A DNA stretch of 60,615 bases, taken from contig CALDSE010000042.1 in NCBI GenBank assembly GCA_937911175.1, positions 1-60,615 on the forward strand. Reading direction: 5' to 3'. Position 1 is the first letter of the stretch; each line of letters opens with the position of its first letter. The position numbers and the translations under genes are program-made. Origin of the DNA: an uncultured Sediminibacterium sp. Lineage in GTDB: Bacteria > Bacteroidota > Bacteroidia > Chitinophagales > Chitinophagaceae. Below the pieces are notes generated by a model. That model saw only the letters and a program-made list of their open reading frames with translations. It searched no databases and was not told where the DNA came from. Positions 17,435 to 29,739 of this stretch are shown piece after piece.

Positions 17435-18196
17435 ATGCAATACACGCTAAAAAAATCATTGGGGCAGCATTTTCTAAATGACGCTCAAGTTTGTAAGGAT
17501 ATTCAGGCAGTATTGCTAGCGCAGCCTATTGAGCAGTTGCTAGAAGTGGGTCCTGGTGCAGGGGCTTTAACGAAGTATATTCAAGACATTCCCAAGCAGT
17601 CATTTAAAGCCATTGAATTAGACCGAGAAAAAGTGGCTTTTTTAAGTACTGAATACCCTGAATTAAAAGACAAATTAATACTGGCCGATATTTTGGAGGC
17701 AGCCCTACCTTTTGAAAATGATTTTGTGGTGGTGGGTAATTTTCCTTATAATATTTCTACGCAAATTGTATTTAAAATTTTAGAGTGGAAAGAGCATGTA
17801 CCCATGATGGTGGGTATGTTTCAAAAAGAGGTAGCAGAAAGAATTGCAGCTAAGCCTAATTCAAAGGCTTATGGAATATTAAGTGTTTTAACACAGGCAT
17901 TTTATGATGTTACTTATTTATTTGATGTGCCGCCTACTGCTTTTACCCCGCCTCCAAAAGTAATGAGTGGAGTGATTCGATTGACTCGAAAAGATAATTT
18001 CCCGAAATTTGTTTCTGAAAAACTATTTTACCATATTGTTAAAATGGCCTTTGGGCAAAGAAGAAAAATGCTAAGAAATCCGTTAAAGCCTTATTTTAGC
18101 GCAGCGCAGTTACAAGACCCGCTATTTACCAAAAGAGCTGAAAACCTTACCTATGATGACTATGCTGCCTTAACTTTTAAAATGCATATTGAATAA
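17435..18196 (+). CDS. rsmA: 16S rRNA (adenine(1518)-N(6)/adenine(1519)-N(6))-dimethyltransferase
   Basis: Dimethylates two adjacent adenines near the 3' end of 16S rRNA during 30S maturation. The 253 residues start with KKSLGQHFLNDA, then SAM-binding LLEVGPGAGALTKYI and catalytic motif IV VVVGNFPYNIST. The C-terminal FGQRRKMLRNPLKP is also typical of KsgA. Spacing to the dehydrogenase gene downstream is 1 base, so the two are cotranscribed. Confidence 0.97.
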   Translation: MQYTLKKSLGQHFLNDAQVCKDIQAVLLAQPIEQLLEVGPGAGALTKYIQDIPKQSFKAIELDREKVAFLSTEYPELKDKLILADILEAALPFENDFVVVGNFPYNISTQIVFKILEWKEHVPMMVGMFQKEVAERIAAKPNSKAYGILSVLTQAFYDVTYLFDVPPTAFTPPPKVMSGVIRLTRKDNFPKFVSEKLFYHIVKMAFGQRRKMLRNPLKPYFSAAQLQDPLFTKRAENLTYDDYAALTFKMHIE

Positions 18197-18197
18197 A

Positions 18198-19127
18198 ATG
18201 GCTTTGAAAATAATTATAACTGCACCCGTACATCCTTTTTTATTAGATACGCTTGAAGAAAAAGGATATACTATTCAATACGAACCTGCTATTAGCTATG
18301 AAGCCTTAATGGATTGTATTGATACAGCGCATGGATTAATTGTAACCACTCGATTAAAAATAGATGCCAGTATTTTAGCAAAAGCGAATCAACTACAATG
18401 GATTGGGCGCATAGGAAGTGGTATGGAATTAATTGACACTGAATTTGCGGCTAGTAAAAATATATTATGTGTAAGTAGTCCTGAAGGTAATAGAACCACC
18501 GTGGGGGAACATACCCTAGGTTTATTATTAAGTTTAATGAATCGCATTCATAGTGCTTATCAAGAAGTGAAAGAAGGTAAGTGGATACGTGATGCCAATA
18601 GAGCAGATGAACTTACTGGAAAGACCGTAGGTATTATTGGACTAGGCAATACAGGATCTGCTTTTGCAAAAATTTTGTCTGGCTTTGATGTTGAAATTTT
18701 AGCACATGATATTTATAAAACTGGATTTGAGACAGCGCAAATAAAAGAGGCAAGCTTGGAAATGATTCAAGAAAAAGCGGATGTGATTAGCTTGCATTTA
18801 CCCCTTACTCATTTAACGCATCATTATGCCAATACTGCTTTTTTTAATCGTCTAAAAAAGAAGCCTTATTTTATAAGTACCTGTAGAGGACCTGTTACTG
18901 AAACCGCTGCAGTTTTAGAAGCCATTCAAAATCAGCAAATTAGGGGGGTAGGCCTGGATGTGCTAGAAAAAGAGCCCATTCACCTAAATACAGGCCAAGA
19001 AATGGCTGTTTTAGAAGCAGTTATGAAGCATCCAAATTGTATCATAACGCCTCATATTGCAGGCTATAGCCACGAGGCCTACTATAAAATGTCTAAAGTC
19101 CTATTGGAAAAATTAGGTATCATTTAA
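18198..19127 (+). CDS. D-2-hydroxyacid dehydrogenase (SerA-like family)
   Basis: NAD-dependent oxidoreductase of 309 residues. The Rossmann motif is VGIIGLGNTGSAFAKIL. The catalytic set is visible as Arg in ISTCRGPVTE, Glu in GVGLDVLEKEP, and His in ITPHIAGYS. It lacks the ACT/regulatory domain of long phosphoglycerate dehydrogenases, so substrate specificity is open; 3-phosphoglycerate or another 2-hydroxyacid is possible. The start ATG 18198 follows the rsmA stop by one base; a TTG nine bases earlier is less likely. Confidence 0.9.
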   Translation: MALKIIITAPVHPFLLDTLEEKGYTIQYEPAISYEALMDCIDTAHGLIVTTRLKIDASILAKANQLQWIGRIGSGMELIDTEFAASKNILCVSSPEGNRTTVGEHTLGLLLSLMNRIHSAYQEVKEGKWIRDANRADELTGKTVGIIGLGNTGSAFAKILSGFDVEILAHDIYKTGFETAQIKEASLEMIQEKADVISLHLPLTHLTHHYANTAFFNRLKKKPYFISTCRGPVTETAAVLEAIQNQQIRGVGLDVLEKEPIHLNTGQEMAVLEAVMKHPNCIITPHIAGYSHEAYYKMSKVLLEKLGII

Positions 19128-19138
19128 GCAATATTTTA

Positions 19139-19146
19139 TATCTTTG
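19139..19146 (+). promoter_or_regulatory. -7 element at the head of the greA leader
   Basis: TATCTTTG followed after 4 nt by ATG 19151. Predicted start of transcription is around 19150-19153, directly at the beginning of the leader hairpin and mini-ORF. No strong -33 element is seen. Confidence 0.55.
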
Positions 19147-19150
19147 TACT

Positions 19151-19187
19151 ATGCAACGCCTCACTTATGTGGCGTTGTATTTTTTTT
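19151..19187 (+). terminator. Terminator-like hairpin in the greA leader (attenuator candidate)
   Basis: Ten-base arms ATGCAACGCC (19151-19160) and GGCGTTGTAT (19171-19180) pair completely with one G-T wobble around a 10-base loop, followed by seven T at 19181-19187. It could end transcription from the upstream dehydrogenase gene, attenuate greA, or both. Confidence 0.7.
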
Positions 19188-19195
19188 ATAACTAA
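19151..19195 (+). CDS. Possible 14-residue greA leader peptide
   Basis: ATG at the predicted transcription start opens a 14-codon frame (MQRLTYVALYFFYN) ending at TAA 19193-19195, 9 nt before the greA ATG. The frame spans both arms of the terminator hairpin, so a ribosome translating it would melt the hairpin. Codons 10-13 (YFFY) are aromatic, partly forced by the T-rich tract. It could be a chance frame; translation is unproven. Confidence 0.35.
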   Translation: MQRLTYVALYFFYN

Positions 19196-19204
19196 ACTAA
19201 GGAT

Positions 19205-19681
19205 ATGAGCGATACTACAGTATATGTCACCCAAGATACTTTTGATAAAATGCGTGAGCAATTACAAAAGATGAAGTCGGTAGAGCGTCCGGCTGCTTCT
19301 AGAGCTATTGGAGAAGCTAGAGAAAAAGGAGACTTAAAAGAAAATGCTGAATACGATTCTGCTAAAGAAGCGCAAGGAATGTTGGAAGCAAAAATTAAAC
19401 AATTGGAAGCAGCTATTTCCAATGCTAAAATAGTAGATACAAGTACCATTGATACAAGTAAGGTAACTATATTAACCAAGGTTACTATCACTAATCAGGC
19501 GACTAAAAAAACAATGACCTATCAATTAGTAGGAGAAAAGGAAGCCGATTTAAAAGCCGGTAAAATTTCTGCATCTTCACCTATTGGAAAAGGGTTAATT
19601 GGTAAAAAAGTAGGAGAGCTAGCAGAAATTCAAGCGCCTAATGGGGTGATGAAATTTATGGTAGAGAATATTACAGTCTAA
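19205..19681 (+). CDS. greA: Transcription elongation factor GreA
   Basis: Rescues backtracked RNA polymerase by stimulating transcript cleavage in the secondary channel. The 158 residues have the N-terminal coiled coil with the tip acids (EKGDLKENAEYDSAKEAQG), and the C-terminal FKBP-like domain (SASSPIGKGLIGKKVGELAEIQAPNG). Normal length. The start at ATG 19205 lies after a T-rich leader. An unusual upstream arrangement of promoter, mini-ORF and terminator hairpin suggests attenuation. Confidence 0.97.
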   Translation: MSDTTVYVTQDTFDKMREQLQKMKSVERPAASRAIGEAREKGDLKENAEYDSAKEAQGMLEAKIKQLEAAISNAKIVDTSTIDTSKVTILTKVTITNQATKKTMTYQLVGEKEADLKAGKISASSPIGKGLIGKKVGELAEIQAPNGVMKFMVENITV

Positions 19682-19717: not shown

Positions 19718-20107
19718 ATGACCCTTTTTTCAAAAATAATCAATGGCGATATTCCTTCTTATACAATTGCGGAGTCGGAAAAGTTTTATGCTTTTTTAGA
19801 TATTTTTCCTTTGCAAAAAGGGCACACCTTAATTGTGCCTAAAATAGAAGTAGATAAAATATTTGATGTACCTGATACTTATTTAAGTGAATTATTAATA
19901 TTTGCAAAACCTATAGCTGCAGCTATCGAAAAAAGCTTTCCTTGTAATAGAGTGGGTATGGTTACTGTTGGCTTAGAAGTGCCTCATGCCCATTTGCATT
20001 TAATACCTATTAATGCAGCAGCTGATATGGAATTCTCTCAGCCTAAACTTGCTTTAAGTACGGAAGAGTTTAAAGCCATTCAAGATTTAATTATAAGTAA
20101 ATTATAA
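19718..20107 (+). CDS. HIT family nucleotide-binding protein
   Basis: 129-residue purine-nucleotide phosphoramidase-like hydrolase. The histidine triad is visible as PHAHLHLIPI near residue 90, and the N-terminal SKIINGDIPSYTIAES plus QKGHTLIVPK are family hallmarks. It follows greA by 36 bp on the same strand and may be cotranscribed. The exact substrate is not predictable. Confidence 0.93.
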   Translation: MTLFSKIINGDIPSYTIAESEKFYAFLDIFPLQKGHTLIVPKIEVDKIFDVPDTYLSELLIFAKPIAAAIEKSFPCNRVGMVTVGLEVPHAHLHLIPINAAADMEFSQPKLALSTEEFKAIQDLIISKL

Positions 20108-26988: not shown

Positions 26989-29739
26989 ATGGAGTATCAA
27001 TTTAGGGCCATTGAAAAAAAGTGGCAAACTATTTGGCAGGAAAAAAAGGCGTACAAGGTAAGTAATGATTCTACTAAGCCTAAGGCTTATATATTAGATA
27101 TGTTTCCATATCCAAGTGGTGCTGGTTTGCATGTTGGTCATCCCCTAGGTTATATAGCATCAGATATTTATAGCAGGTATAAAAGACTGAAAGGTTTTAA
27201 TGTTTTACATCCCATGGGTTATGATGCCTTTGGATTACCTGCGGAGCAATATGCAATCGAGCATGGTGTGCATCCTACTAAAAGCACTTATGATAATATC
27301 AATAATTTTAGAAAGCAATTAGATAATATTGGATTTTGTTTTGACTGGGATAGAGAAGTAAAAACCTGCGATGTAAGTTATTATAAATGGACGCAGTGGA
27401 TTTTCTTACAATTATTCAATAGCTATTTTGATAAAGGGGCAGCCAAAGCAATGCCCATTGCAACACTTGAAGCTGCTTTTGAAAAACAAGGTAATGCAAA
27501 TCATAGTTGCCCAGGCGATGCTGCTTTAAATTTTACAGCTACTGATTGGAAAGGGTATTCAGAAAAAGAAAAGCAGGCCATTTTAATGCAATACCGTTTG
27601 GCTTTTTGTGGGTATGGAGAAGTAAATTGGTGTGCGGCCTTGGGTACGGTACTTGCCAATGATGAAGTGATTAATGGATTTAGTGAAAGAGGCGGCCATC
27701 CTGTAGAGAAAAAGAAATTACGTCAATGGTATTTAAGAATTACAGCATATGCAGATAGGCTACTGTCGGGGCTAGAGACCATTCAGTTTAGCGAAGCCAT
27801 GAAAGAAATGCAATCCAATTGGATTGGTAGAAGTGAAGGTGCTGAAATTGATTTTGCCATACAAGGACATGCAGGCAGTTTAAAAGTTTACACCACAAGA
27901 CCAGATACTATTTTTGGGGTGGACTTTATGGTGGTAGCACCTGAGCATTCTCTTATTGAAACTATTACACCAGCTACCCATAAGGCAGCAGTAGCTGAAT
28001 ATATTGGGTATGTAAAAAGTAGAAGTGAAAGAGAGCGTATCGCTGAGAAAAAAATTACGGGCTGTTTTACAGGTGCCTATGTGACTAACCCTTTCAACAA
28101 TGCCTTAATACCTGTTTGGATATCTGAATATGTATTAGCAGGTTATGGTACAGGTGCGATTATGGCTGTGCCTTGTGGAGATGATCGTGATTTTAAATTT
28201 GCACAACATTTTAATATTCCTATTACTAATATTATTGGAGATGCCTATAATGGAGAGGAAGCCAACCCCACTAAAGAAGCTATTTTATCGAATAGCGACT
28301 TTTTAAATGGTATCGTGCAAAAAGATGCCATTGCCATAGTAGCTAAAAAATTAGAGGCCATGGGTATTGGCAAGTCTAAGATTAATTATAGAATGCGTGA
28401 TGCGGCCTTTAGTAGACAGCGTTATTGGGGAGAGCCTTTTCCCATTAAATGGAAAGACGGAATTGCTTATCCTATATCAGAAAAAGAACTTCCTTTATTA
28501 TTACCAACCGTTGATAATTATTCTCCCGGACCAGAAGGCGAGGGCCCCTTGGCAAATATTGCTGCATGGAAAGCAGAAAACTATGAAACCAATACTATGC
28601 CTGGCTTTGCAGGCAGTAGCTGGTATTTTTTAAGGTATATGGATACTGCAAATGATACAGCGTTCTGTAGTAGAAAAGCAAGTGATTATTGGGGACAAGT
28701 GGACCTTTATATTGGAGGCACAGAACATGCTGTAGGACATTTATTATATAGTAGAATGTGGACGAAAGTATTATTTGATTTAGGCCATATTGGTTTTGAC
28801 GAACCTTTTAAGAAATTATTAAATCAGGGAATGATACAAGGTAGTTCTCGATTTGTATATAGAATAAGAGGCACGCAAAAATTTGTATCAAGTGGATTAA
28901 AGCAAGCGCATGAAGTGGACGCCTTGCATGTAGATGTTAATATAGTAGACGGTGTTGAATTAGATACAGAAGCGTTTACAAAATGGAAACCCGATTATGC
29001 AAAAGCTGAATTTATTTTAGAAGATGGTAAATATATATGTGGGGTGGAAGTAGAAAAAATGTCTAAGTCGAAATTTAATACAGTGAACCCCGATGACTTA
29101 GTAGAAAAATATGGCGCCGATACTTTTAGAATGTATGAAATGTTTTTAGGTCCGGTAGAGCAAAGCAAACCATGGGATACCAAGGGTATTGAAGGGGTGC
29201 ACCGTTTTTTAAAAAAATGCTGGCGTTTATTTTTTGATGAAATCAAAGGAAAGGTATGGGTAGACGAGGCGCCTACAGCTGCTGAATTAAAGGTACTTCA
29301 TAAGGCCATTAAAAAAATTGAAGAAGATACAGAGCGTTTTAGTTTTAATACTGCGGTGAGTAGCTTTATGATTTGTGTGAATGAACTAGCCGATTTAAAT
29401 TGCCATAAAAAAGAAATACTTTCTCAACTAGTTATTTTGTTAACCCCTTATGCGCCCCATTTTGCAGAAGAGTTATGGCAGGTATTGGGAATGGATGGCT
29501 TAGTGGTAGACGCGGCTTATCCGGTTTTTGATGCACAGTATGTAACTGAAACAGAGAAAGAGTATCCTATTAGTATTAATGGAAAATTAAGAGCGAATAT
29601 TCTTATTGCCCTTGACGCTAGCGAGGATCAAGTGCGCGCTATAGTTTTAGACAATGAGGTAGTTAAAAAATGGGTGGAGGATAAGCCTATTAAAAAGCTC
29701 ATATTTGTAAAAGGGAAGATGGTAAATATTGTAATTTAA
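26989..29739 (+). CDS. leuS: Leucine--tRNA ligase
   Basis: Class I aminoacyl-tRNA synthetase of 916 residues. HIGH-type motif HVGH at residues 48-51 within [19 protein letters not shown]1 editing domain with [19 protein letters not shown] and [16 protein letters not shown]; catalytic KMSKS at 690-694. An insertion with [18 protein letters not shown] precedes KMSKS. Anticodon-binding and C-terminal domains follow. The 5' UTR from the divergent promoter is ~95 nt; no T-box or leader peptide was found there. Confidence 0.97.

Follow-up and report, generated by a model that had tools for sequence, protein, structure and literature searches.

A terminator-like hairpin at the probable transcription start of greA in Sediminibacterium and its recurrence ahead of greA in Bacteroidota

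Introduction

Why does a hairpin with the look of an intrinsic terminator stand directly ahead of greA, the gene of a factor that rescues RNA polymerases when they stall, where it could stop transcription of this gene almost as soon as it has begun? The question is raised by a contig of an uncultured Sediminibacterium sp. (Chitinophagaceae; NCBI GenBank assembly GCA_937911175.1, contig CALDSE010000042.1, positions 1 to 60,615 of the forward strand; this whole stretch of 60,615 nucleotides is referred to as the window), in which a promoter-like box, the hairpin and a T-run lie immediately upstream of the greA start codon. A first-pass annotation had interpreted the arrangement as a leaderless leader-peptide attenuator, in which a ribosome translating a 14-codon frame that overlaps the hairpin would keep the terminator from forming. 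According to excerpts of PMC6829880, the E. coli greA leader contains a terminator that yields the small RNA GraL and allows about one third read-through; the same paper calls the regulation of greA poorly understood even in that species. We found no description of a greA leader in Bacteroidota in the open-licence literature (weak evidence of absence), and greA is not mentioned in the main text of PMC7366714, a transcriptome paper on B. thetaiotaomicron. On the basis of comparisons within the genus, the family and the phylum, we argue that the hairpin is probably (at a probability of roughly 0.7) a start-site-proximal intrinsic terminator that attenuates greA.

Results

The elements on which the argument rests are arranged as follows:

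19139 to 19146, plus strand: TATCTTTG, which fits TAnnTTTG, the -7 promoter box of Bacteroidota
19150 to 19153, plus strand: likely transcription start, as placed by the box
19151 to 19180, plus strand: terminator-like hairpin (stem 19151-19160 / 19171-19180, loop 19161-19170)
19154 to 19159, plus strand: CAACGC, 5' strand of the lower stem, whose sequence is nearly frozen
19172 to 19177, plus strand: GCGTTG, 3' strand of the same lower stem, likewise nearly frozen in sequence
19180 to 19187, plus strand: T8 tract (7-9 T in all loci of the genus sample described below)
19205 to 19681, plus strand: greA (NCBIfam TIGR01462)

The ten base pairs of the stem, one of them a G-U pair, are followed by seven further T (19181-19187), and RNAfold assigned -15.6 kcal/mol to positions 19147-19204 (z -3.9), a value equalled by none of 200 shuffles. 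The identity of greA is given by NCBIfam model TIGR01462, which scored 177.5 bits versus a cut-off of 139. The box consensus was taken from the consulted portion of PMC7366714; TATCTTTG is separated by a 4-nt spacer (TACT) from an ATG at 19151, so that transcription would begin roughly where the stem does. Judged by eye, no -33 TTTG is present at the usual spacing from TATCTTTG. A simple terminator scan did not list the hairpin because its loop, 10 nt by perfect pairing, lies beyond the limit of 3-8 set in that scan, and Rfam release 15 revealed nothing above gathering score in positions 18900-19400, only three sub-threshold matches (23.2, 17.8 and 16.7 bits versus gathering scores of 44.2, 97 and 60, respectively).

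As a sample of the genus we used the 110 nearest greA loci (30 + 80, with the same contigs from two collections included), which reduce to 86 when identical 75-nt upstream sequences are merged and to 70 when identical leader stretches are. The hairpin with its T-run is present in all 110 loci and thus in all 86 distinct upstream sequences. In 100 of the 110 loci the end of a TAnnTTTG-type box, with A or T allowed as second letter and G or A as last, lies 7 or 8 nt ahead of the CAACG core of the hairpin; the distance is 5 nt in six loci, 10 nt in two and 3 nt in one, and a single locus has no box by this rule. By eye, the sequence 5' of the box shows no resemblance between genus subgroups; the hairpin is almost invariant. 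The first-pass annotation had placed box, ATG, 14-codon frame, hairpin, T-run and greA spacing at the correct positions, and its view that greA has a leader equipped with a promoter-like box and an early terminator of its own, comparable to E. coli GraL, agrees with the box in 100 and the hairpin in 110 of 110 loci. As a check it had suggested asking whether promoter, mini-open reading frame (mini-ORF) and hairpin covary in related greA upstream regions: box and hairpin do recur together, and the mini-ORF does not follow them. One contig of the comparison, titled Comamonas (L043), bears a Sediminibacterium-type greA locus and is probably mislabelled or part of a contaminated bin.

The combination of box, hairpin and T-run at greA is not due to chance. 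TAnnTTTG occurs 76 times on the two strands of the window, and the site at greA alone has, no more than 12 nt behind it, a hairpin of -8 kcal/mol or lower with a T-run. Outside the 200 nt preceding greA in loci L221-L280 (n = 60), 2 of 256 box sites have such a hairpin, one of the two being a displaced greA leader in L231, 226 nt ahead of greA. In this locus (L231, 2758-2984) a family-type box and hairpin are separated from greA by other sequence, and it was scored as a miss in the phylum-wide screen described below. The next-best combination in the window, at 27909 on the plus strand, has a weaker hairpin (-7.3 kcal/mol).

Six stem pairs show no variation at all among the 70 distinct genus leaders, and covariation is not usable within the genus because the stem sequence varies too little. 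We analysed pairs across genera, with the genus part collapsed to 28 distinct hairpins and with 25 leaders from other Chitinophagaceae genera. In these 25 leaders, stem pairs 1-6 stay CAACGC/GCGTTG except for two one-sided changes. At each of the upper-stem pairs 8-11, three to six standard pair types are seen and pairing holds in 22-25 of the 25 leaders, with 5-6 different standard types at each of pairs 8, 10 and 11. Such compensatory upper-stem changes are strong evidence that an RNA hairpin before greA is under selection. The lower half of the stem appears to be under an additional constraint at the level of sequence; the evidence for this is likewise strong and was partly favoured by the search, since 17 of the 25 leaders came from model R1, which favours lower-stem likeness. 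Eight leaders without an R1 match at E 0.01 have the same core, one of them with T for its first C.

Model R1 gave 29 matches in 27 genomes when run over 198 genomes of the order. Within the family, 23 of 25 matches lie at greA; the other two, plus four outside the family, do not. We read these six matches as ordinary terminators or chance, given that each stands behind a co-directional ORF that has just ended; by eye, none has TAnnTTTG in the preceding 60 nt. In the genome of the window, R1 matches the greA site alone, and an exact pattern adds one shorter match. A related hairpin, AAACGCTCC..GGGGCGTTTTTTTT, occupies a short gap between two co-directional ORFs in L140 (1501-1540, reverse strand), the first of which presumably encodes a pyruvate kinase, which it resembles.

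To extend the comparison to the phylum, we used a non-random sample of 140 greA loci from 139 genomes that represent 107 genus and 49 family codes, chosen by greA score or hand-picked across families; 7 of its 11 f1 loci were chosen because model R1 had not matched them, and the f1 genomes G070, G171, G188 and G203 contributed no locus. The screen required a hairpin of -8 kcal/mol or lower with at least 5 T in the next 8 nt, at most 130 nt from the start codon, and other genes of the same loci, defined by a simple longest-ORF rule, served as controls. A terminator-like hairpin was detected at 121 of 140 greA loci. Of the control genes, 52 of 390 had one over an equal span and 80 of 390 when the span was widened, and of the shuffles 27 of 280 did. 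At -10 kcal/mol the corresponding counts were 112/140, 33/390 and 13/280. Counted by genus (first member), 90 of 107 have the hairpin; by family, 45 of 49 have it in any member and 41 of 49 in the majority. Stem sequences differ across families, as illustrated by the AAACGTTTC, GACGTCC, GGCACGTCC and CAGGGCGTC types. In families f33, f35 and f46 the hairpin lies farther from greA, at 61-87 nt (L195, L198, L205, L220, L249, L251-L253, L268, L269).

A TAnnTTTG-like box within 40 nt ahead of the stem accompanies 68 of the 121 greA hairpins versus 5 of 52 control hairpins. Its distribution is uneven: 54 of 63 greA hairpins in the window's class have it versus 14 of 58 in other classes, and a start site adjoining the hairpin is therefore indicated for the window's class and no wider.

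The stems also share a short element. CGTT near the 3' end of the stem was counted in 30 of 114 greA hairpins versus 48 of 519 background hairpins, and within the order in 24 of 42 versus 17 of 131 (a faster detector was used for this count, hence 114 greA hairpins and not 121). It stands directly ahead of the T-run in the 3' arm of otherwise unlike stems, for example in L001, L144, L193, L219 and L279. These counts are suggestive of CGTT as a shared stem element, which many families do not have.

Does the hairpin serve greA or the gene before it? The neighbouring genes in the window are:

18189 to 19127, plus strand: upstream co-directional gene, D-2-hydroxyacid dehydrogenase (phosphoglycerate dehydrogenase-like)
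19718 to 20107, plus strand: HIT/HinT-like gene downstream of greA, below every NCBIfam cut-off

No NCBIfam model reached its cut-off on the dehydrogenase; the HIT/HinT-like gene is possibly co-transcribed with greA. A plain 3' terminator of the upstream gene, standing before greA by coincidence, would fit the co-directional dehydrogenase, whose stop lies 26 nt from the CAACG core in the window and less than 60 nt away in 59 of the 86 distinct genus loci. It would also fit the six R1 matches behind co-directional ORF ends and the co-directional neighbours at 94 of the 121 hairpin-bearing greA loci of the phylum sample (orientation being called by a crude ORF rule, here and below). However, the hairpin is kept in 27 of 29 loci with a divergent upstream neighbour (one genome being present twice), and it is kept in all 16 distinct genus loci in which the dehydrogenase is absent from the flank (eight) or has its stop 155-1208 nt away (eight). 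The promoter-like box at near-fixed distance between the upstream gene and the hairpin, and the enrichment of hairpins before greA compared to other genes, likewise speak against such a terminator. Because it is retained with divergent, changed or distant upstream genes, the hairpin belongs to greA and not to its neighbour. On the same divergent and changed neighbours we reject termination of the upstream gene as its sole role, a reading we consider improbable; the hairpin may additionally terminate that gene.

Two further roles are conceivable. First, the hairpin could give rise to a GraL-like, trans-acting small RNA, and control of greA would then be secondary: the predicted RNA measures ~35-38 nt, part of the stem is sequence-frozen and, according to excerpts of PMC6829880, E. 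coli GraL also acts in trans. However, the loop and upper stem, where seed sites would be expected, vary among genera, and other families have different stem sequences, which makes this reading highly improbable. Second, a hairpin at the very 5' end of the mRNA, followed by an A/U-rich stretch, could stabilise the greA mRNA or aid its translation without any termination; for such a function a T-tract immediately behind the stem would be superfluous, but all 110 genus loci have 7-9 T there, and we give this explanation very little credence.

The mini-ORF of the first-pass annotation occupies:

19151 to 19195, plus strand: 14 codons and a stop, present in the window, not conserved and judged incidental

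Its ATG would coincide with the 5' end of the transcript or fall close to it, its frame overlaps the hairpin, and the greA ATG (19205) comes 9 nt past its stop. An ATG immediately precedes CAACG in 50 of the 110 genus loci and lies at most 8 nt ahead of it in 42 of the 86 distinct leaders. The remaining 44 leaders have only GTG or TTG (16), only CTG (21) or none of these (7). The ATG frames are 5-18 codons long where they end ahead of greA, which 8 of the 42 do not. On a quick greA gene tree, counted without shuffled labels, the state of the ATG changes at least 11 times, with the hairpin present in all 86. In other Chitinophagaceae genera, 8 of 25 leaders have an ATG. The T and G of this ATG fall on stem pairs, and their presence is explained without a start codon because both pair in the stem. 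Nor were mutually exclusive RNA structures predicted in the leader: the terminator hairpin is the only structure, also in a longer leader. Because neither start codon nor reading frame is conserved, we reject the leader-peptide attenuator as hardly tenable: in relatives the ATG is lost and the hairpin stays, an outcome that the first-pass annotation had itself named as refuting its reading. Its corollary, that with the ATG lost the hairpin would simply terminate the upstream gene, does not follow, as the hairpin is kept with divergent or different neighbours and 7-8 nt behind the box in 100 of 110 loci.

Discussion

The comparisons establish the anatomy of the leader, its conservation, the covariation in its stem and its tie to greA instead of the upstream neighbour. 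From this arrangement we infer a start site, termination in vivo, a fraction of read-through and, with less confidence, feedback by GreA. In a start-site-proximal attenuator, the box would direct transcription to begin on the 5' arm of the hairpin or a few bases from it, RNA polymerase would transcribe about 30 nt, and the hairpin would form. A large share of polymerases would then release an RNA of ~35-38 nt at the U-tract, with the remainder reading on into greA, and the hairpin would probably limit the amount of GreA made. Such an attenuator would be built into greA, with no space for an upstream antiterminator and no need for a leader peptide. As the 5' arm would lie at the 5' end of the transcript, no antiterminator could form upstream of it, and control would therefore have to act on the termination step itself. 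The fold of a longer leader retains the hairpin; no alternative antiterminator was seen in the extended leader, and no upstream strand is left for one if the start site is as placed by the box.

The most likely regulator of this step would be GreA itself, which could cleave the RNA in polymerase that has backtracked on the U-tract and return the polymerase to the termination point, such that more GreA would lead to less greA mRNA. According to excerpts of PMC6829880, autorepression of E. coli greA requires the leader in cis and catalytically active GreA. By analogy, we regard the feedback step here as a serious possibility to which we would give slightly less than even odds. A broader proposal is more tentative, and we hold it at present to be doubtful: start-proximal greA terminators throughout Bacteroidota, and also in E. 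coli, might read out RNA cleavage by GreA through lineage-specific stems, with the CAACGC/GCGTTG of Chitinophagaceae being read sequence-specifically by polymerase or GreA.

Several observations weigh against greA attenuation by a start-proximal terminator, or against parts of it. First, the pair counts within the genus do not beat shuffles (326 of 500 have at least as many two-sided pair changes), and the covariation, which comes from the other genera only, was counted on stem arms positioned with a motif rule that we devised. Second, a plain terminator would work without a frozen lower stem, which is the feature we can explain least. Third, 19 of 140 greA loci have no hairpin within 130 nt, although one of them has only 70 nt of upstream sequence and another is L231, with its hairpin 226 nt out; six of the seven loci of family f18 (L142, L147, L149, L158, L160, L163) are without it, an apparent loss of the leader hairpin. 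Fourth, 44 of the 58 greA hairpins outside the window's class have no such box. Finally, excerpts of PMC6829880 report that the feedback in E. coli is seen in vivo and not in vitro, for which reason an additional factor is suspected, and that some feedback survives scrambling of parts of the leader.

Lineage-specific, very short leaders across most of the phylum sample provide many natural versions of one device, and the f18 loci could act as a natural control. The minimal leader of Chitinophagaceae (~37 nt) would offer a simple in vitro template for the effect of a cleavage factor on intrinsic termination. If feedback by GreA via termination recurs, it would represent a general principle.

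How does the leader relate to known systems? In leader-peptide attenuators such as trp, a short frame overlaps the terminator; the leader in the window differs from these in that its frame is not conserved and no competing hairpins are predicted. It resembles the rimP-leader, as described in excerpts of PMC2965389, in having a short terminator whose stem is conserved in sequence and for which no antiterminator is visible, and in the suspicion of feedback, the rimP-leader preceding the gene group for the transcription factor NusA; gene and motif (GGGc...gCCC) are different. In the same excerpts, Naville and Gautheret (2010) rank greA/rnk seventh among attenuated gene families, and the greA- and rnk-leaders share with the window a terminator before greA that recurs across species. 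By contrast, no antiterminator can precede the hairpin in the window if its start site is as placed here. A trait of the greA-leader attenuators, a recurrent terminator-like hairpin directly upstream of greA, was found in 110 of 110 genus loci and in 121 of 140 loci of the phylum sample, and our hairpin detector also returned a terminator-like hairpin (-16.6 kcal/mol) at E. coli greA. Compared to GraL, as far as excerpts of PMC6829880 describe it, there is no sequence similarity by eye, without alignment; 19 nt lie ahead of the terminator structure in E. coli, whereas the hairpin in the window would begin at about +1 to +4; and GreA feedback and action in trans have been shown in E. coli, whereas the leader in the window is known from its sequence. 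Common to both, if the hairpin in the window does act as a terminator, is an intrinsic terminator in the greA leader near the transcription start that yields very short RNAs, of 37-59 nt in E. coli and of a predicted ~35-38 nt in Sediminibacterium.
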